Shown here one piece after another: positions 12,412 through 20,485 of a DNA stretch of 22,248 bases. Source of the stretch: a virus; the IMG/VR virus record IMGVR_UViG_3300036670_000183, positions 1 through 22,248 of that record; one strand, given 5' to 3'. Made by a program: the position numbers and the translations under genes. Under the pieces are notes generated by a model that saw only the letters and a list, made by a program, of their open reading frames with translations, searched no databases and was not told the DNA's origin. Numbering within the stretch: the stretch's first letter is position 1; each line of letters starts with the position of its first letter.

Positions 12412-13785
12412 TCAGGCGCCGTTGGCCTTGTGCAGGCCACGGAAGTCGACCGCTTTGGCGGCAAACCACAGCTTGCACTTGATGTCAACGCCATCAACTT
12501 CCCAGCCGCTTTTGCTGGTGACCGTGGGGCCTTCTGCGCCGTCGAGGTAGCAATACTCGATGGTGTCAACCGCACCGCTTGATGCGGCGGCGTACCAAGA
12601 TGTGGCGCTGGTTTCGTCCAGAATCGGCTCGACGATGGGCTCCACAGCGGTGCGACCACCGGCTCTGAACTCGTTGATCGCGCCCACGGTGGCCGGCACA
12701 AAGTTCGTGCTGGTGAGCTGGTAGGCGGTTTGCTCAAGCGAAACCGGCACGATCAGGTAAGCGGGTGCCAGGTTCAGCAGCTCGTTGCCTAGGCCTTTTT
12801 GCTTGCGCATGGCAGTGCGCGCGACAGCCAAAGAACTGGCCTGCAGTGCAGAAGGTGCGCCGGTTTGCAGGTTGCCGTTGGGTGCGCTGTAGTCAGCACC
12901 CACCAGTTGGGCGTATGCCAGGCGGTTTTCCAGGCGCGAGGCAGAGAAACCAAAGGCGCTCAGCAGCCGGTCGAAGCCGCGCAGGTCGTCGTTGATGATG
13001 GCCTCTTCGGTCACTGACACGATGCGCCCGTACTTGACGACCTTGTAGCTGACCTCGCCGTCGACCAAGGTGCCGTAGGTGTATTCACCGGCCTGGTTGA
13101 CCTGCAGCAGATCGGGTGCGCCTGAGAGCTGCACCACGTTGATGTTTCGGGTGTCGGGTGCGTTTGGGGCGCGGCGGGCCCAGGCCTGGTAGGTGCTGGC
13201 GCTTTCTTCGTAGGCGGCGCGCAGGCGGCGGTTGGCCACGCTGCCCAGCAGGCTGGCGAAGTCTGACGTGGTGTGCATGCCGCCGCTGCGCACCTGAATC
13301 ATGCCGCTGGCAATTTCGTTGCGCGCCATGCCGCGCGTGTTGACGCTGCTGCCCTCCAGCATTTCGCGCCCGATTTCCAGCAGGCTCATGCCCCGGTACT
13401 GGCGGCCGTTGTCGTCCATTTGAGCGCTTGGGCTGATGCGGTGCATCATGGCTTGCTCAATGCCGGCCATGCGGGTGGTGTGCTGGTCGCGCACGGTCTC
13501 GATGCGGGGTGCCGCGTTGCGGTGTCCACCAGCGGCTGCGTCAACGCGGGCCAGCTCGTCGAGCACAGCGGATCGCGCGGCGCTCACATCGGCGCCGGAT
13601 CGAATGAGGCCAGCGGCCAGGGCAGGCACGCCGTGGCGGGCGCACAGCTCGCTGATGTCGGCGGCGCGGGCCTGCATATCAACCACGGGCGCGGCAGGGG
13701 CCAGATTTGGCTCCACGCGAACTTCGGTTGCGGGGATGACGGCGGCCGTGGTGGGGGTGCCGCCCTGTTCGTTTGCTTGGGGCAT
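12412..13785 (-). other. Possible nested capsid/scaffold reading frame from internal ATG
   Basis: ATG at 13785 is codon 210 of the fusion gene and is in frame. It begins MPQANEQGGT, echoing the MPQ start of the full gene, and is preceded by the purine-rich CTGAAAGAAACC. The resulting product would be 457 residues: linker or scaffold region plus gpT-like capsid, without the protease. Nested in-frame starts are known for scaffold genes such as lambda Nu3 inside C. This one is a proposal from position and leader only. Confidence 0.35.
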
Positions 13786-14412
13786 GGTTTCTTTCAGGTG
13801 GGTTTGGGCGGCTGCCCGGGTGACGAACTCGCAAGGCGTGGCGCCTGTTGAGGGTTGCGAGCGGGTGCCGCTACCGGCGTCCGCAGGAACGGGAACAAAA
13901 GAGATTTCGGCGGGCGTCCAGCTGACAGCGCGGTAGAGCCAACCGGCACCGCCATCGGTGCGCTGCTCGGGCGGCGTCATTTCCATGCGCTCAACGGTGT
14001 AGCCCGCGCTGATGTGGCGGATGACGCCCGAGCGAATGTCGGCCACGATGCCCGCGAGCTCGGGGCGCTCGCTCAGGCGCACCATGGCGCGGCCTTCGGT
14101 GCCTGCGATCCAGGCGCGTTCGACAACGCCGATCACGTCTCGCAGCTGGTATTGGCCATGGGTGTCGAGCACGCTAGCACCGGCTGCCATTCGGCTCATG
14201 TTCACAGCCGAATCACTTACCTCAAGCTCTTCGTCATACATGCGGTCGCGCATGTAGTCGTAGCGGCGCACGCGGGCGCCGGTGGTGAACACCACCTCGA
14301 CCGTGCGCGCGGCCTCGTCGAATGTGGCCGGCTGAATCTGCGCCGCGCGGATCTGCGTGGGCAGGTCGGCGGTTTCGATGGCCGGGCTTGGCTGGGTTAC
14401 AGGTTGGGGCAT
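12412..14412 (-). CDS. Prohead protease / Mu gpT-like major capsid protein fusion
   Basis: One 666-codon frame encodes two normally separate functions. Residues 1-180 are an HK97-type prohead protease: VLDTHGQY gives the probable catalytic His85, IRHISAGY gives Ser135, and WTPAEISFVP contributes Glu169 as a possible third residue. Residues 210-370 are a linker and scaffold-like, Ala- and Glu-rich region. Residues about 370-666 resemble the Mu gpT major head subunit: HTTSDFASLLGSVANRRL, then GAPDLLQVNQAGEYTYGTL, YGRIVSVTEEAIINDDL and SRLENRLAYAQLVG. Such fusions are known in a group of tailed phages. The protease probably cuts itself and the scaffold away after assembly. The start ATG at 14412 lies at the end of a duplicated leader, and an internal ATG (13785) could give a capsid-only product. 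Confidence 0.9.
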   Translation of the reverse strand: MPQPVTQPSPAIETADLPTQIRAAQIQPATFDEAARTVEVVFTTGARVRRYDYMRDRMYDEELEVSDSAVNMSRMAAGASVLDTHGQYQLRDVIGVVERAWIAGTEGRAMVRLSERPELAGIVADIRSGVIRHISAGYTVERMEMTPPEQRTDGGAGWLYRAVSWTPAEISFVPVPADAGSGTRSQPSTGATPCEFVTRAAAQTHLKETMPQANEQGGTPTTAAVIPATEVRVEPNLAPAAPVVDMQARAADISELCARHGVPALAAGLIRSGADVSAARSAVLDELARVDAAAGGHRNAAPRIETVRDQHTTRMAGIEQAMMHRISPSAQMDDNGRQYRGMSLLEIGREMLEGSSVNTRGMARNEIASGMIQVRSGGMHTTSDFASLLGSVANRRLRAAYEESASTYQAWARRAPNAPDTRNINVVQLSGAPDLLQVNQAGEYTYGTLVDGEVSYKVVKYGRIVSVTEEAIINDDLRGFDRLLSAFGFSASRLENRLAYAQLVGADYSAPNGNLQTGAPSALQASSLAVARTAMRKQKGLGNELLNLAPAYLIVPVSLEQTAYQLTSTNFVPATVGAINEFRAGGRTAVEPIVEPILDETSATSWYAAASSGAVDTIEYCYLDGAEGPTVTSKSGWEVDGVDIKCKLWFAAKAVDFRGLHKANGA

Positions 14413-14418
14413 GGGGTG

Positions 14419-14463
14419 GGATGTTCTTTGGGTTGGTGTCGCATTGCTGGCAGGGCTGCGACT
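14419..14463 (-). repeat. Duplicated hairpin leader, copy A (upstream of protease-capsid gene)
   Basis: A 29-bp identical core (14435-14463), an 8-nt variable spacer and an identical 8-mer GAACATCC (14419-14426) recur at 16186-16230. Within the core, GTCGCA and TGCGAC (14438-14462) form a 6-bp dyad around a 13-nt centre. The 8-mer ends 6 nt before the ATG at 14412, exactly as in the other copy. The upstream end overlaps the portal stop codon. Confidence 0.9.
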
Positions 14464-15964
14464 ATTTCGGGGGCGGCGTGTCTTCTGCGGGCATGACAGC
14501 GGCCGCGTTGCCGCTCTTCATGGCCAGCAGATAGGCCAGCGTGCCGTCTGAGGCCAGGCGCTCCATGTCGCTCTTGATTTCCGCAAAAACGAGGTCGGGT
14601 TTGTAGCCACGGCGGCGCAGCTTTTCGCTGATGGAACACAGGCCGCCCTGCACTTCCGCGTTGTCTGCGTTGACCTCCTGCAACGGGTTTACGTAGTCCC
14701 ACTTGGGGGTGCACCAGTCGACCGCATATTCGGTCTGAGGCATGGCGCCGCTGAGCACAGCAGCGTCGACCCACTCGCGCCAGACGCGCCGGCACAAAAC
14801 GGGGATGACCAGCAAAAACTGCACCTGCTCGACCGATCGGCGAAAGTCAATCAACGCCACGCGGGCGCTGCTGAAATTGGTGCCAGACATGTCGCCGGTG
14901 GCCATTTCGTAGGTCACGCCAATGCCGGCCGCGATGGTGTGCTTTTGCTCTTTGACGTATTCGACATAACCGGGCGCGACCTTGGGCTCGACCACGGTGA
15001 GCGTCATGCCGGGCGGGATCATGGTGATGCCGCCGCTGGCGAGTTGACCCAGCTCTTTCGGGTCGCTCAAGTCTTCGCCACCAGGGCCGGGGCCTTGCAT
15101 GGCGCTCAGATCGCCGGTGGCCAGCACGGCCAGGCGGGTCTCCAGGTTCTTGCGCTGCAACTCGGCGTCTTCGTACAGCTGCAGGTCGCGCACGCGCGAA
15201 ATCACCGGCGACAAGCGCGAGAAGCCGCGCTGCTGGCCCGGCCGGTCGGGCCGGAAGAGGTGAATGATTCGGGTGGCGGGCACCGGGCGGCTGTAGGTTC
15301 CAGCGCGGCGCACAGCCGTGGTGATTTCGCCGGGGTGGCGGTCATACAGCCAGTAATTGACGATGCGGCCCAGTGCGTCGCATTCGATGCCGTTGACGAT
15401 GGTGTTGCCGCCAGCGGTGCCGTTTTTGCTGCTGTCGAGCCAGTCAATTTCGATCACCTGAAGTTGCATGGGCACAGGCAGGCCGTCGGCGGGGGCACGC
15501 GGTCGAATGCGCACCAGCACCTCGCCGTCAACCTCCATGGCCCGGTAGGCGCGGGCCTGCAGGCCGTAAAAGTCGCTCAGGCCATCGGCGTCGGCCACCT
15601 CGGCCCACTGGTCCCACAGCTTGTCAACGCGCTGGCGCGCCGCAGGGGTTTCGGCCAGGCTGCGCGGAGAGATGCCGGTGCCCACGGTGTACGACACGAG
15701 CGACTCGATGGCGCGCGAGACATAGGGCACGTTTTGCACCAACGATCGGGCGCGAATGCGCAGCTCAGCGCCGTCGCCCAGGTGGTCGGTGTTGGCACTG
15801 GCACCTGCGCGCCGGGGCGCCCAGCCATCGCGCCTACTGGCGCCCTCATAGGCTCGGGTCAGCTGCTCGCGCGCAACAGCGCGCATGAGGCCAGCGCGCG
15901 GGGCAAAGTAGCCCACCACGCGATCAACAACGTTGCGGGTCATGGCCGCTTTTTTGTCGGCCAT
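14462..15964 (-). CDS. Lambda-type portal protein
   Basis: The product has 500 residues, close to the usual size of lambda gpB-type portals. Landmarks are the N-terminal VVDRVVGYFAPRAGLMRAVA, then ARSLVQNVPYVSRAIESLVS followed by YTVGTGI, LWDQWAEVADADGLSDFYGL, EVDGEVLVRIRPR, IEIDWLDSSKN and the conserved FRPDRPGQQRGFSRLSPVIS. Later KKL-like helical segments and TNFSSARVALIDFRR fit the stem and wing region. The portal forms the dodecameric ring through which DNA is packaged and to which gpW and FII-like proteins attach. The ATG at 15964 shares a TGATG overlap with the gpW stop. Its stop codon abuts one copy of the duplicated hairpin leader. Confidence 0.95.
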   Translation of the reverse strand: MADKKAAMTRNVVDRVVGYFAPRAGLMRAVAREQLTRAYEGASRRDGWAPRRAGASANTDHLGDGAELRIRARSLVQNVPYVSRAIESLVSYTVGTGISPRSLAETPAARQRVDKLWDQWAEVADADGLSDFYGLQARAYRAMEVDGEVLVRIRPRAPADGLPVPMQLQVIEIDWLDSSKNGTAGGNTIVNGIECDALGRIVNYWLYDRHPGEITTAVRRAGTYSRPVPATRIIHLFRPDRPGQQRGFSRLSPVISRVRDLQLYEDAELQRKNLETRLAVLATGDLSAMQGPGPGGEDLSDPKELGQLASGGITMIPPGMTLTVVEPKVAPGYVEYVKEQKHTIAAGIGVTYEMATGDMSGTNFSSARVALIDFRRSVEQVQFLLVIPVLCRRVWREWVDAAVLSGAMPQTEYAVDWCTPKWDYVNPLQEVNADNAEVQGGLCSISEKLRRRGYKPDLVFAEIKSDMERLASDGTLAYLLAMKSGNAAAVMPAEDTPPPK

Positions 15965-16179
15965 CAGTAGCGTTCACGCGAGGTGGCGAAGCTGAAATAG
16001 CCGGTGCGCGCGGTGCGCCCGGGCTGCGCGGCGGCAATTTCGGCTTGAATGGTTCCTTTGGCCTTGAGCAGGTCGCCCATGCTGCGGTAGGTGACCGTGC
16101 GCCCGTTGTGGCTGACGGTGAGCTCGCCACTTGCAATGGCCGCGTCAACTGCGGCGAGGTCGGATGATGTGAATGCCAT
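15964..16179 (-). CDS. Head-tail joining protein, gpW-like
   Basis: The 71-residue product has the plan of lambda gpW (68 residues): an N-terminal helix (FTSSDLAAVDAAIASGEL), a beta hairpin (TVSHNGRTVTYRS), a second helix (MGDLLKAKGTIQAEIAAAQ) and a short Arg-rich C-terminus. It sits directly before the portal gene, as in lambda. gpW binds the portal after packaging, seals DNA in the head and provides the FII docking site. Its ATG is preceded by AGGAACATCC, part of the duplicated leader. The gene is short but the helix-hairpin-helix pattern and synteny are convincing. Confidence 0.88.
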   Translation of the reverse strand: MAFTSSDLAAVDAAIASGELTVSHNGRTVTYRSMGDLLKAKGTIQAEIAAAQPGRTARTGYFSFATSRERY

Positions 16180-16185
16180 AGGCGC

Positions 16186-16230
16186 GGATGTTCCTGCGAT
16201 CGGTGTCGCATTGCTGGCAGGGCTGCGACT
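16186..16230 (-). repeat. Duplicated hairpin leader, copy B (upstream of gpW)
   Basis: This is the second copy of the 45-bp element at 14419-14463. The 29-bp core is identical (16202-16230), the 8-nt spacer differs and the 8-mer GAACATCC is identical (16186-16193), again 6 nt before the start codon. The GTCGCA / TGCGAC dyad spans 16205-16229. The region lies between the methyltransferase stop codon and gpW. Confidence 0.9.
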
Positions 16231-16245
16231 GTTTTAGGGGTGGGC

Positions 16246-17406
16246 TCAGGCGGCGCCGAACAGATCCACCGTGTGTGCGTCGCGCTCGCTTGCGGGCTTG
16301 AGGAATTGCGCGCCCGATAGGTGCAGCGTGTGCGCGTGGTCGATGCGGGCCTGGGCGATTGCGAGGTATTCGGCTTCGCGCTCGATGCCCACGAACTGAA
16401 AACCTTCCAGCACCGCGCCCTTGCCTGTGCTGCCTGACCCCATGAACGGGTCGAGGACGGTGCCGCCCGCTGGCGTTACCAAGCGGCAGAGGTAGCGCAT
16501 GAGGTCGGTGGGTTTGACCGTTGGATGGTTGTTGGCACGCGGGGAAACCTCGTATCCCTCATCTCGGCGCGTCATGTGCTGGCCGCTGGTGTTGCTCACG
16601 AACCCGCCTGATACTTTGCCAAAACCGTGCAGGCCCTCGTCTCGGTCGGCCTTGCTGGCTTTGGCTTCGTAGAAAAAACGGGCGGCGCTGCCGGTGTCGT
16701 TGTGCCCACCCAGAACCCCAGGCAATCCGCTCGCGCCGCCGTGGTAACCCATCGTTCCGTTCGGGTCGCGCACGCCAATCTTGCTTGGGGATGTGGTCGG
16801 GAACACTGCCAGCACCTCGGCGCTGCCATCGTGAATCAGGTTGGCCGGCCAGCGGCCTTCGTCTGAGCCGACCATCACTTCTTTGGGCACCCAGGCGTCG
16901 TCCTCGTGCGGAAACGCACCAGAGCCGCCGCGCTTCGCTACCTTGGTCGACTCGCTGCCCACCCGGCACGCCTCGATGTTCAGCGCCCCAGTGCCATGCT
17001 CGCGCCAGTTCGCTTCGACCGTGCCAATCAACGGCTTGCGGGCCATCGTGATCGGCTCCAGTGCGGGTTTCAGCGCAGTACCGCCCCATTCGCCGTTGTG
17101 GCTTTTGGGGAAGCCCGAGCCGTAGACCCAGGCGATCATGTCGCGAATGTGAAACCCGGCGTCTTCGATGCGGCAGGCCATGCGGTGTTGGGTGCGGGTG
17201 CCAGCGAAGGCGAGCAGGTGACCGCCGGGCTTGAGCACGCGAAGGCACTCGGTCCACACGTCAACGCCGGGCACGTCAACGTCCCACTTCGCGCCCATGA
17301 ACGAGAGGCCGTAGGGCGGATCGGTCACGATGCTGTAAACGCTGTTGTCGGGCATGGTGCGCAGCACGTCGAGGCAGTCGCCCAGGTGCAGGGTGTAGGG
17401 CTTCAC
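16246..17406 (-). CDS. Beta-class DNA methyltransferase (probable N6-adenine)
   Basis: The product has 386 residues. Motif IV, DPPYG, lies at residues 29-33, and the S-adenosylmethionine-binding motif I, LDPFMGSGSTGKGAV, is near residue 318. This IV-then-I order with a long target-recognition stretch between them defines the beta class, and DPPY favours N6-adenine over N4-cytosine. HPTVKPTDLMRYL before motif I is typical of this class. GTG at 17406 was chosen because it forms a GTGA overlap with the upstream gene and follows GGGGGGAA; the longer reading to 17634 overlaps the HTH gene in another frame. No restriction enzyme is nearby, so it is probably an orphan enzyme that protects phage DNA or marks it for regulation. 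Confidence 0.9.
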   Translation of the reverse strand: MKPYTLHLGDCLDVLRTMPDNSVYSIVTDPPYGLSFMGAKWDVDVPGVDVWTECLRVLKPGGHLLAFAGTRTQHRMACRIEDAGFHIRDMIAWVYGSGFPKSHNGEWGGTALKPALEPITMARKPLIGTVEANWREHGTGALNIEACRVGSESTKVAKRGGSGAFPHEDDAWVPKEVMVGSDEGRWPANLIHDGSAEVLAVFPTTSPSKIGVRDPNGTMGYHGGASGLPGVLGGHNDTGSAARFFYEAKASKADRDEGLHGFGKVSGGFVSNTSGQHMTRRDEGYEVSPRANNHPTVKPTDLMRYLCRLVTPAGGTVLDPFMGSGSTGKGAVLEGFQFVGIEREAEYLAIAQARIDHAHTLHLSGAQFLKPASERDAHTVDLFGAA

Positions 17407-17753
17407 ACGCTTCCCCCCGGTTGCTTCAACAGCCGGTAAACGTGCGGCCGACTGATGCCCAGGCGGCGCGCGACTTCGCGGGCGTTGCGCCCGTTGAACA
17501 AGGCCAGCGCCTTGCGGGCCATGGCGGCGCTGTTGGGCCGGTTGGTGACCGTGCCGCGCAAGCCCAGCAGCTGGTGGCGCACCGCAGCCTCGTGCTCTTC
17601 GCGCGCATGCGGTGCGATGCCGCCTGACTCGCACAGCAGATCAAAAATGGCGGTGACCAGATCGGGCTCGGGGCGAGCGTGGCTGGTTGACTGCCCCACA
17701 AACACGTTGCCCTGTTGTTGCTCGGCTTTTGGGCTTTTGGTGGTTTCGATCAT
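17403..17753 (-). CDS. Small helix-turn-helix protein, Mor-activator-like C-terminus
   Basis: The product has 116 residues. The C-terminal part (about 75-112) carries ARKALALFNGRNAREVARRL followed by GISRPHVYRLLKQPG, in which residues 88-110 form a clear helix-turn-helix. The FNG-x-N followed by REVARRLGIS-x2-VYRLLK layout matches the Mor/C family of phage middle or late transcription activators. The N-terminal half is charged and unassigned, with an IFDLLCESGG helix. It overlaps the methyltransferase start by GTGA, so the two are translated together. It may activate late genes or control the methyltransferase. The ATG at 17753 lacks a good ribosome-binding site, so the exact start is less sure. 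Confidence 0.72.
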   Translation of the reverse strand: MIETTKSPKAEQQQGNVFVGQSTSHARPEPDLVTAIFDLLCESGGIAPHAREEHEAAVRHQLLGLRGTVTNRPNSAAMARKALALFNGRNAREVARRLGISRPHVYRLLKQPGGSV

Positions 17754-17777: not shown

Positions 17778-18470
17778 TCAGCGGGCGCTGGCGAGGGCGG
17801 CGGCAAGCGCGGTGTTGAAGTGGCCGGCAAACTTGGCGTTTGTGGTGGTCTTGGCCAGGCCTTCAAAATTGAACTTGGCTTTGTAGGTGGCGGGCGTCTT
17901 GCTGAACACGATCACCGGAACCAGCTTTCCCTTGCCACCTGGCGTGCTGGATGGCTCGCGGCGCCATATACCCATGGGCGCTTTGTTCCAGCCCTTGCCT
18001 TGCGGGATGCCGTAGAAAAGCTGTACCGCTCCCTTGCCGCTGGCGTTTATGCGCCTGGCAAGCGCGCCGCCAAGGCTTCCGCTTTTTGCCGCCGCCTTGA
18101 GCCGGGCAATGGTGCCCTTGGGAATGTTTCCGAACCCGTTGAGTTGAATGTTGCCGGGCAGCTTGATGCCAGCAGGGCCGGGCGCGCGCCGGCCACCGGC
18201 GATCTGAAGCGCCATGTAGCGGGCCTGGCGGTCTTTGAATCCAACTGTGGCCTCTAAATTGTTTTTCTTGGCGGGCGTTAGATACGTGCTGTTTCGGGTG
18301 GTGAATGTGGTGGGGTTGTCGAGCACGCGCCTCAGTTCTGCGGGGATGGCTTGCTGGAGATCTTTGGCGGTGCGGTTCAGGGCTTGCGAGGCAGCGAAGC
18401 GGGCCTGGTTGCCGTACTGCGCGATGGCGGCGCGCACTTCTTCGAGGTTGGTGGTGATGTTGATTTGCAT
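17778..18470 (-). CDS. Putative minor tail protein, gpZ-like
   Basis: This 230-residue basic protein has an N-terminal helix pattern (MQINITTNLEEVRAAIAQYG, then QARFAASQALNRTAKDLQQA) like lambda gpZ and related proteins, which start with an amphipathic helix and an ALNR motif. The rest is rich in Lys, Gly and Ala, including RQARYMALQIAGGRR, GGALARRINASGKGA and a C-terminal GHFNTALAAALASAR. gpZ acts in completing the tail so that heads and tails join. Its place here, between terL and the HTH gene rather than with the tail genes, is unusual. The ATG at 18470 follows the terL stop by 5 nt. The longer in-frame reading beyond it lies over terL and was rejected. Confidence 0.6.
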   Translation of the reverse strand: MQINITTNLEEVRAAIAQYGNQARFAASQALNRTAKDLQQAIPAELRRVLDNPTTFTTRNSTYLTPAKKNNLEATVGFKDRQARYMALQIAGGRRAPGPAGIKLPGNIQLNGFGNIPKGTIARLKAAAKSGSLGGALARRINASGKGAVQLFYGIPQGKGWNKAPMGIWRREPSSTPGGKGKLVPVIVFSKTPATYKAKFNFEGLAKTTTNAKFAGHFNTALAAALASAR

Positions 18471-18475
18471 GGGGG

Positions 18476-20485
18476 TCACCAGTAACGAGGTTGGGCTGCG
18501 CGCGGTGGGGCGCGGCGCGGGGGCGGCGGGGTTGCGGTGGTCGGTGCGATGGGTTTGACTTCGATGGGTGCCGGGGTGGGTGCGCTGAACAGGTCTACCG
18601 AGGGCTGAAACTTGGCTTCGCGCCGTGCCCAGCCGGTGTCTCGGTAGGTCTGAATGCCGAGGTAGCAGGCGGCGGCGTAGGCGTAGACCATGCAATCGCC
18701 GCCCTCTTCGCGGTGCCCTTGCGGGGTGATCCAGCGCATGCTGGCTTTGCCTTGCACGACCACAGGCAGCAAGCGCGCGGCGGTCATCTGCTCGAATTCG
18801 TCGGTGACGATCAGGGCCTTGGGCACATGCACGTAGCCCGGCCCGGCCTGGGTGATGCGCATGCGGCCGTACAGCAGGTGTTTGGCGGTGTCGGTGCCCA
18901 CGGGCCACAGCTTCACGCCGCCGCGCTGGGTGGCACCGCGCCAGTTCACATCGACCTGGCTTGGCCTGCCGAGCACGGGGCGGCCGTATTGGCTGGCGCC
19001 CTTGACAGCAAGCACGCCCGCGTGGGCATGGGCGCGGCAGTAGGCGTAAACGGCGTGGGTGTTGTGGCCGCCAGAGTCGATGCCGGTGGCTTCGATCGGC
19101 ATCTGCGCACCTGTGGCGGTGTGCAGCGGGGTGCGCCTGATTTCGGTCAGGCGGGTCCATGGGCTGCCCTCGGTGTTTTCGTCTAGGTTCGGGTCGCCGT
19201 AGAGAATGTGGCGGTCGACCAGCCAGCTTTCTTCACCACGACCGTAGGCGTAGACGCGGGCTTCCAGGCGGTCGGGCTGGGTGTCCACGCCCATGGCGAG
19301 CATGAGGCCCCCACGGGGCACGATGCCCATCGGGTAGTCTTCGGCGCGCACGGCCAGGGCCTTGCTGTCGGCGCCGGTGCCCTGCTCTTCCCATGTCTCG
19401 GCCAGCGAGCTGTTGAGGAACTTTTTGAGTGGGGCGCTGTTGCCTGCGCGCCGGGCCTCTTGCGCGCCTTCCCACTCTTCCACCAGATCGCCCCAGCTGC
19501 GCCAGCCAAGCGGGCTGTAGAGCTTGTTGAGCCAGAAGCCGGCGCGCTTGCCCTGGCCGGCGCCTGGTGCCTGGGGCACCCAAACGCCACCGCGCAGCAT
19601 GCTGTCTTTGCGGTGCTCTTCGATGGCCGCGCCACAGTGGCGGCAGATGTAAACGGTGGTCTCGGGCCGGGCCTTGCCCTGGGCGTCTTTGAGCCACTTG
19701 ATGCCCCACGCTTCTTTGGCGCCCCACAGCAGCACCTGCGACTTGCCGCAGTGCGGGCAGGGCACGTGGTATTGGCGCCGGTCGCTGGCCAGGTATTCAG
19801 ACTCGATGATGCTGTAGCCCTTGATGCTGCAGGTGCTGGCGATGATCAGCTTGCGGCTGCTGAAGTTGCTCATGCGCTCTTCCAGCAGACCCAGCGGCGG
19901 GCCTTCGTTGTCGACGTCGGCGGGCCACTTGTCCACCTCGTCGGCCACCGCAAAGCCCAGCGGCTTGGAAGCGAGCGAGGCGGCGCTGTTGGCGCCGGCG
20001 AAAAAAACCGTAAAGCCGCCTTGAATGCTGCGGCTGCGCCAGCTGGTGGATTCGTCTCGGCTCTTGCGCACCGCCACCTTGCCGTGCATGGCGGGCGTCT
20101 GCAGGATGGTGGGCAGGAAGCGCTGGGCGCTGTGGTCTTGCGCGTCTTGCAAGGTGGGCTGCACCATCATCATGTCTTGCGGGTCGGTGTGGATCCGCTG
20201 CATAACGGCGTTGTAAAGCACCTCCGATTTGCCGAGCTGGGTGGCGAACCACAGCACGACGCGCTCGTAAGGCTGGTGCGAGCTGGCGCATTGCATGGGT
20301 TCGACCAGGTAGGGCGTGCGCTCGTTGCGCCACGGGCCGCGCTCGGGGCCCTTGGCGATGTGGCGGAAGCGGGCGGCCCATTCGGCGGTGTCGATGCGCG
20401 GCGGGGGCGCGAGGAACTGGCGCTTGGCAGCGGCCAGCAGCTCGGCGGCTCGGGCGTAATCAGTTGGGGTGTCGCGTGCGGTCAA
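18476..20485 (-). CDS. Terminase large subunit, lambda gpA family
   Basis: The product has 669 residues. The ATPase shows an atypical Walker A region, FATQLGKSEVL (residues 80-90), the PTLQDAQDHS segment and Walker B LGFAVADEVDKWP (about 176-188). Two Cys pairs, CPHC (243-246) and CRHC (281-284), suggest a zinc ribbon, as seen in gpA-family enzymes. The nuclease domain begins near GVDTQPDRLEAR with metal-binding Asp401. It cuts concatemeric DNA and drives it into the prohead with the small subunit. The start is TTG at 20485: terS ends in TTGA overlap and GAAGGAG lies 7 nt upstream. gpA-type enzymes usually cut at cos sites, so cohesive ends are likely but unproven. Confidence 0.95.
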   Translation of the reverse strand: MTARDTPTDYARAAELLAAAKRQFLAPPPRIDTAEWAARFRHIAKGPERGPWRNERTPYLVEPMQCASSHQPYERVVLWFATQLGKSEVLYNAVMQRIHTDPQDMMMVQPTLQDAQDHSAQRFLPTILQTPAMHGKVAVRKSRDESTSWRSRSIQGGFTVFFAGANSAASLASKPLGFAVADEVDKWPADVDNEGPPLGLLEERMSNFSSRKLIIASTCSIKGYSIIESEYLASDRRQYHVPCPHCGKSQVLLWGAKEAWGIKWLKDAQGKARPETTVYICRHCGAAIEEHRKDSMLRGGVWVPQAPGAGQGKRAGFWLNKLYSPLGWRSWGDLVEEWEGAQEARRAGNSAPLKKFLNSSLAETWEEQGTGADSKALAVRAEDYPMGIVPRGGLMLAMGVDTQPDRLEARVYAYGRGEESWLVDRHILYGDPNLDENTEGSPWTRLTEIRRTPLHTATGAQMPIEATGIDSGGHNTHAVYAYCRAHAHAGVLAVKGASQYGRPVLGRPSQVDVNWRGATQRGGVKLWPVGTDTAKHLLYGRMRITQAGPGYVHVPKALIVTDEFEQMTAARLLPVVVQGKASMRWITPQGHREEGGDCMVYAYAAACYLGIQTYRDTGWARREAKFQPSVDLFSAPTPAPIEVKPIAPTTATPPPPRRAPPRAAQPRYW

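Follow-up and report, generated by a model that had tools for sequence, protein, structure and literature searches.

The stretch of viral DNA analyzed here, referred to as the window, is the 22,248-nt IMG/VR record IMGVR_UViG_3300036670_000183 and contains a block of head genes on the minus strand (Table 1). Pfam and PHROG matches upheld the earlier naming of these genes as gpW, portal and protease-capsid. Two copies of one element, each on the same strand as its gene, precede the gpW ATG at 16179 (copy 1) and the protease-capsid ATG at 14412 (copy 2). Comparison of the two sites revealed a 29-nt core, AGTCGCAGCCCTGCCAGCAATGCGACACC, shared without a mismatch by positions 16230-16202 and 14463-14435 (minus strand). 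As the original prediction had described, the core is followed in each copy by an 8-nt spacer of differing sequence (GATCGCAG in copy 1 and AACCCAAA in copy 2), an identical GAACATCC, 6 nt and then the ATG. An ungapped 67-nt alignment of the two copies gave 81% identity, and no further copy was found in the window up to 3 mismatches. The chance of an exact 29-mer repeat in 22 kb is roughly 1e-9 by our own estimate, far below random expectation. The copies had also been said to flank the gpW-portal pair; the portal gene does lie between them, with the correction that copy 2 overlaps the portal stop codon (TAG, 14464-14462) and is not free intergenic DNA.

Table 1. Genes and predicted promoter features in the window
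Feature	Positions	Strand	Basis
Mor/C-like activator, 116 aa, C-terminal HTH FNGRNAREVARRLGISRPHVYRLLKQ, predicted to bind both dyads	17403..17753	minus	Family profile, PF08765, PHROG 532/836, fold match
DNA methyltransferase ORF (N6_N4_Mtase), between activator and promoter 1	16246..17634	minus	PF01555, E 7.6e-29
Copy 1 A-tract AAAA, just 5' of dyad, UP-element-like	16232..16235	minus	A-enrichment at corresponding positions, 94 elements
Copy 1 upstream dyad arm GTCGCA, predicted about -48 to -43 of gpW promoter	16224..16229	minus	Sequence; place conserved in 80 loci
Copy 1 13-nt inter-arm spacer GCCCTGCCAGCAA	16211..16223	minus	Sequence
Copy 1 downstream dyad arm TGCGAC	16205..16210	minus	Sequence; exactly 11 nt to -10 in relatives
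Copy 1 predicted -10 hexamer GAACAT (nAnnnT), first letters of GAACATCC	16188..16193	minus	Conserved offset, 57/57 gpW copies
gpW / head-tail adaptor Ad1 gene, predicted target of promoter 1	15964..16179	minus	PHROG 2545 'head-tail adaptor Ad1', E 4.5e-21
Portal gene, between both predicted promoters	14462..15964	minus	PF05136, E 9e-99
Copy 2 upstream dyad arm GTCGCA, overlaps portal stop codon	14457..14462	minus	Sequence
Copy 2 13-nt inter-arm spacer, same letters as copy 1	14444..14456	minus	Sequence
Copy 2 downstream dyad arm TGCGAC	14438..14443	minus	Sequence
Copy 2 predicted -10 hexamer GAACAT of capsid promoter, 8 nt before ATG	14421..14426	minus	37/37 capsid copies keep nAnnnT
Protease-major capsid fusion gene, predicted target of promoter 2, without Shine-Dalgarno	12412..14412	minus	PF25209, E 1.5e-51, and Mu gpT match; anti-SD energy -0.9

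The methyltransferase ORF has a listed GTG start at 17634, and its domain begins near 17330. In relatives this gene is missing or replaced; it is variable cargo outside the element, and its place, with the activator gene on one side and the gpW promoter on the other, resembles a slot for changing cargo. As separate observations, the slot is occupied in locus L013 by another ORF resembling another DNA methylase and holds nothing but a terminator in locus L014. Elsewhere in the window, a minor-tail-like ORF (MQINITTNLEEVRAAIAQYGNQARF..., about 17778-18480, minus strand) is flanked by the large terminase and the activator, an unusual location for a tail gene.

Three IMG/VR contigs with portal identities of 97-98% carry the element; two retain the pair, and the third contig stops short of the second site. 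The DNA upstream of copy 1 differs in these contigs (methyltransferase, other genes or terminator), while the element is unchanged. No close DNA relatives were found among cultured phages. A prophage in a Burkholderiales MAG (L009; portal identity, 61-62%) has a different hairpin, GTCTCAA...TTGAGAC, at the same two places. For comparison, a profile search identified 80 portal-related viral loci, nearly all of which have at the gpW site a dyad whose 6-nt arms are separated by 13 nt (in rare cases 14-16). The commonest form is GTCTCA-N13-TGAGAC, and the spacer in relatives is mostly gTTTTCCgggaaa. Covariation analysis of the dyad found that the arms vary in a compensated way: GTCTCA/TGAGAC, GTCGCA/TGCGAC (the window form), GTGCCA/TGGCAC, GTTTCA/TGAAAC, GTTCCA/TGGAAC and TTCTCA/TGAGAA. 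The arms at the capsid site equaled those at the same phage's gpW site in 25 of 30 cases. Several relatives (L092-L097) have 3 to 10 kb of extra genes between portal and capsid, and the second copy stays beside the capsid gene. In one phage, a third copy follows a terminator and precedes a holin gene. Three pattern matches in the capsid set (the second in L044, that in L085 and the reverse match in L095) were judged spurious. Stenotrophomonas phage S1 (54% portal identity) and loci L066/L067 have a distant activator homolog and no recognizable dyad plus hexamer. An unrelated 13-bp perfect hairpin stands before gpW in phage S1 (L010 3698-3741).

That the window copies share even their spacer letters would suit a recent local duplication or a functionless mobile repeat. 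The relatives refute this reading, to which we assign a negligible probability: both copies persist, with diverged sequences, at portal identities of only 53-68%, the element travels with the capsid gene, and each phage has no more than two or three copies, all of them oriented like their genes. A mobile repeat of the REP/IS-like kind was rejected as a candidate, given that the 2.6 Mb genome carrying L009 has no hairpin copy beyond its two. Conservation across relatives thus bears out the original prediction that the element is under selection and is not a product of chance. The proposed link to capsid-assembly genes also held when the core was sought in relatives, where the element precedes gpW and capsid genes and was neither absent nor scattered over random places and orientations.

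A hexamer of the form nAnnnT, with A at position 2 and T at position 6, stands exactly 11 nt after the dyad in 57/57 non-redundant gpW copies and 37/37 genuine capsid copies, and at other offsets such a hexamer occurs in 0 to 5 copies. The hexamer had played no part in picking these sites. In a second sample, drawn from 2.9 million viral contigs solely by the letters of dyad and spacer, all 116 distinct copies had the hexamer at 11 nt; 66 of them lay before capsid genes, 41 before gpW and 9 before others, of which about 6 preceded a holin gene. A and T at these hexamer positions (-11 and -7) are the two most important bases of the sigma-70 -10 element. Read in this light, GAACATCC is the predicted -10 region and not a second RNA element. 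The window hexamer, GAACAT, matches TATAAT at only 3 of 6 positions, and activator help is therefore expected. Matches to the -35 sequence TTGACA number 2/6 in the window and mostly 2-4/6 in relatives, so that no good -35 is present; in all copies, a dyad in place of the -35 is combined with a -10 hexamer, as in Mor/C promoters. Across 94 elements, A makes up 50-89% at positions -55 to -51, immediately upstream of the dyad, compared with a background of 19%, and Mu Pm has a proximal UP subsite at the same place (PMC4390567). Intrinsic terminators upstream of the element were found in 2/94 cases, not convincingly above chance, and a terminator before the element was dropped as a general rule. 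Since such terminators are rare, read-through from gpW into capsid is likely.

Additional promoter copies were seen at other genes. A third promoter class, with a longer leader, lies before a holin-like gene in L106, L124, L160, L170, L196 and L096 (MSKISGPELTSYAG... and similar), and L113 and L157 have copies preceding small genes of different types, one with an AlpA-like sequence.

A Mor/C-like gene lies upstream of gpW in all 82 loci and directly upstream of 39 of the 41 sampled gpW copies. The encoded homologs are 105-160 aa long and end in FNGRNAxEVARRLxISRxTVYRxxKQ. PF08765 (Mor) was matched by 22 of 27 homologs (E<=0.01; best, 1.5e-11), which places the proteins in the Mor/C family by sequence profile at the family level, and single members match PHROG 532/836, 'late transcriptional activator'. 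The L009 homolog scored 25.3 against the Pfam Mor cutoff of 24.9; the window activator alone scored 15.1 bits, below that cutoff, and its Mor/C membership therefore rests on the family. The best PDB match of the family profile was Mor 1rr7 (E 1.4e-4). An AlphaFold model of the activator, of modest quality (pLDDT 68), also had Mor 1rr7 as its best PDB fold match (probability 0.96, E 0.085, TM 0.3-0.4). An Ogr-type zinc finger, as in P2, was considered as the activator, and none was noticed.

The class of the recognition helix co-varies with the class of the dyad arm on the portal tree, with 8 independent pairs in agreement and 0 opposed (p=0.008). Helix [SG]RA[ST] pairs with arm NTCTCA, SRRT with GTGCCA and SRVT with GTTTCA, and the window helix, SRPH, pairs with GTCGCA. 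With helix GRTT, found on several separate branches, arm position 4 is C in all nine cases and the arm is never GTCTCA. Loss of the helix Arg accompanies loss of the outer G:C pair (TTCTCA/TGAGAA). These data tie the dyad to the Mor/C-like DNA-binding protein and argue against an RNA element. Furthermore, 12 of 14 departures from arm symmetry are mismatches and not G-U pairs, which fits half-sites read one by one in DNA.

We weighed these observations against a structured RNA leader, in which a 6-bp mRNA hairpin bound by a phage protein (e.g., portal or capsid) would control translation of gpW and capsid. Such a leader would be compatible with compensated arms and with copies close to start codons, and the hairpin can fold in both window copies (z -2.5 for copy 2 and -0.7 for copy 1). 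It is nevertheless very improbable, because it conflicts with the invariant -10-like hexamer at fixed spacing, the mismatched arms, the co-variation of the arms with the HTH recognition helix and a distance to the ATG that ranges from 6 to about 75 nt; moreover, mRNA from the predicted start would not contain the hairpin. Rfam 15 gave no match at gathering thresholds for 11 sources, and nothing plausible for the window region even with E allowed to reach 10. Of the earlier proposal of a cis-acting RNA or operator, the operator half is thus supported by co-variation with the neighboring HTH protein, and the RNA-hairpin half is not, given the fixed hexamer partner, the variable ATG distance and the hairpin-free predicted mRNA.

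Co-variation between HTH and arm would equally be expected of a repressor operator, through which the HTH protein or another phage regulator would shut both promoters, for instance in a lysogen, and the dyad covers the -35 region, a usual repressor site. We give this arrangement a small chance of being correct, as the promoters lack a -35 adequate for unaided activity, the protein is related to Mor/C, which are activators, its gene sits with late genes, and the targets are late structural and lysis genes. Taken together, the sequence features indicate that the two copies are very probably Mor/C-type activator-dependent late promoters of the head operon and not an RNA leader. Many phages of only distant relationship have the same predicted switch ahead of these two genes.

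Every capsid copy has its ATG 6-8 nt beyond the hexamer. Roughly half of the gpW copies resemble them, and the rest have leaders of 25-75 nt. Pairing of the 17 nt before capsid ATGs with the anti-Shine-Dalgarno sequence averaged -1.3 kcal, weaker than random (-2.5) and than portal (-6.2); only 2.7% of capsid starts, versus 86% of portal starts, had a Shine-Dalgarno at or below -4.5 kcal. An ATG 6-8 nt after the -10, together with the lack of a Shine-Dalgarno, leads us to predict that the capsid mRNA is leaderless. For every capsid copy, that of the window included, a normal start would coincide with the ATG or fall at most 2 nt from it.

Many relatives have another inverted repeat around the -10 box, which stops at the ATG or takes it in, as in L039 (GGCGCCC-GAGCAT-GGGCGCC-ATG) and L054 (CTCGGACA...TGTCCGAG). 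Its letters differ widely and the pairing is kept: folding was better than in shuffled sequences for 22/37 capsid copies (p<0.05), with a conspicuous register at i+j=29 (peak z 4.0; 0/500 shuffles). We first assumed that this repeat was a general feature and then set that idea aside, with 22/37 capsid copies on its side and no inverted repeat around the -10 of the window capsid copy. Because the window copy lacks it, the repeat is offered as a possible second layer for the family only. Where present, it would hide the start codon in read-through RNA and not in the promoter's own mRNA.

We infer the following mechanism. A small protein of the Mor/C kind, encoded just upstream of the head-gene block, would occupy, in dimeric or higher oligomeric form, the 25-bp dyad with its 6-bp arms separated by 13 bp, in place of a -35. 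Together with the A-rich UP-like stretch, it would recruit host sigma-70 RNA polymerase to the degenerate -10, GAACAT, 11 bp downstream. Promoter 1 would drive gpW and portal, promoter 2 would drive the protease-capsid gene and the genes after it, and in some relatives a third promoter would act ahead of the holin gene. For capsid, and in many cases for gpW, transcription would begin on the ATG or 1-2 nt from it and give mRNAs translated without a leader. It is possible, at somewhat less than even odds, that this represents a widespread, undescribed circuit of gpW/portal phages, comprising a Mor/C-like activator, paired promoters and a leaderless major-capsid mRNA, in many members with the -10 in a repeat loop so that only activator-made mRNA is translated. 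The relation between recognition helix and dyad arm offers a readable operator code for phage activators barely recognized by current family models, and it makes late promoters callable from sequence in many uncultured phages. It also predicts that the major capsid protein of a tailed phage is translated from a leaderless mRNA.

No description of such promoters was found in open-access full texts, an incomplete body of literature. A close likeness is to Mu Pm and Mor, which share the activator family, a dyad replacing the -35, a -10 hexamer and an A-rich proximal UP subsite just upstream. The Mu Pm site spans 16 bp, with 5-bp arms and a 6-bp spacer, and is centered at -43.5 (PMC4390567). In contrast, the site described here spans 25 bp, with 6-bp arms, a 13-bp spacer, a predicted center at about -36 and arms about 19 bp apart, and the protein is only distantly alike; since the geometry differs, we regard it as a variant and not as a Pm-type site. 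In cryo-EM entries 9l0x and 9l0y, going by chain counts, Mu C and Mor are each represented by four chains. Mu C binds dyads at four late promoters (PMC4287176), and Plys, PI, PP and Pmom share with our system one late activator acting at several dyad promoters before structural and lysis genes (PMC4287176, PMC4461284). The targets here are instead gpW-portal and protease-capsid, with a portal of the lambda family, the starts are predicted to be leaderless, and the operator sequence is different. P2 Ogr and P4 Delta are likewise small phage activators of dyad-marked late promoters without a -35; neither the zinc finger of the Ogr protein nor its dyad position, near -55, is seen here. At the T4 genes e, soc, 49 and I-TevI, the start is concealed in long read-through RNA and not in mRNA made from the late promoter (PMC3014915). 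These T4 promoters and those of many relatives share a -10 inside an inverted repeat that would cover the start codon in read-through RNA, whereas the window capsid copy has no such repeat. T4 late promoters use gp55, and their mRNAs have a Shine-Dalgarno; a leaderless capsid mRNA is predicted here. Judged from the DNA, what is new relative to Mor/C-type promoters is the operator geometry, the target genes and the predicted leaderless capsid mRNA.
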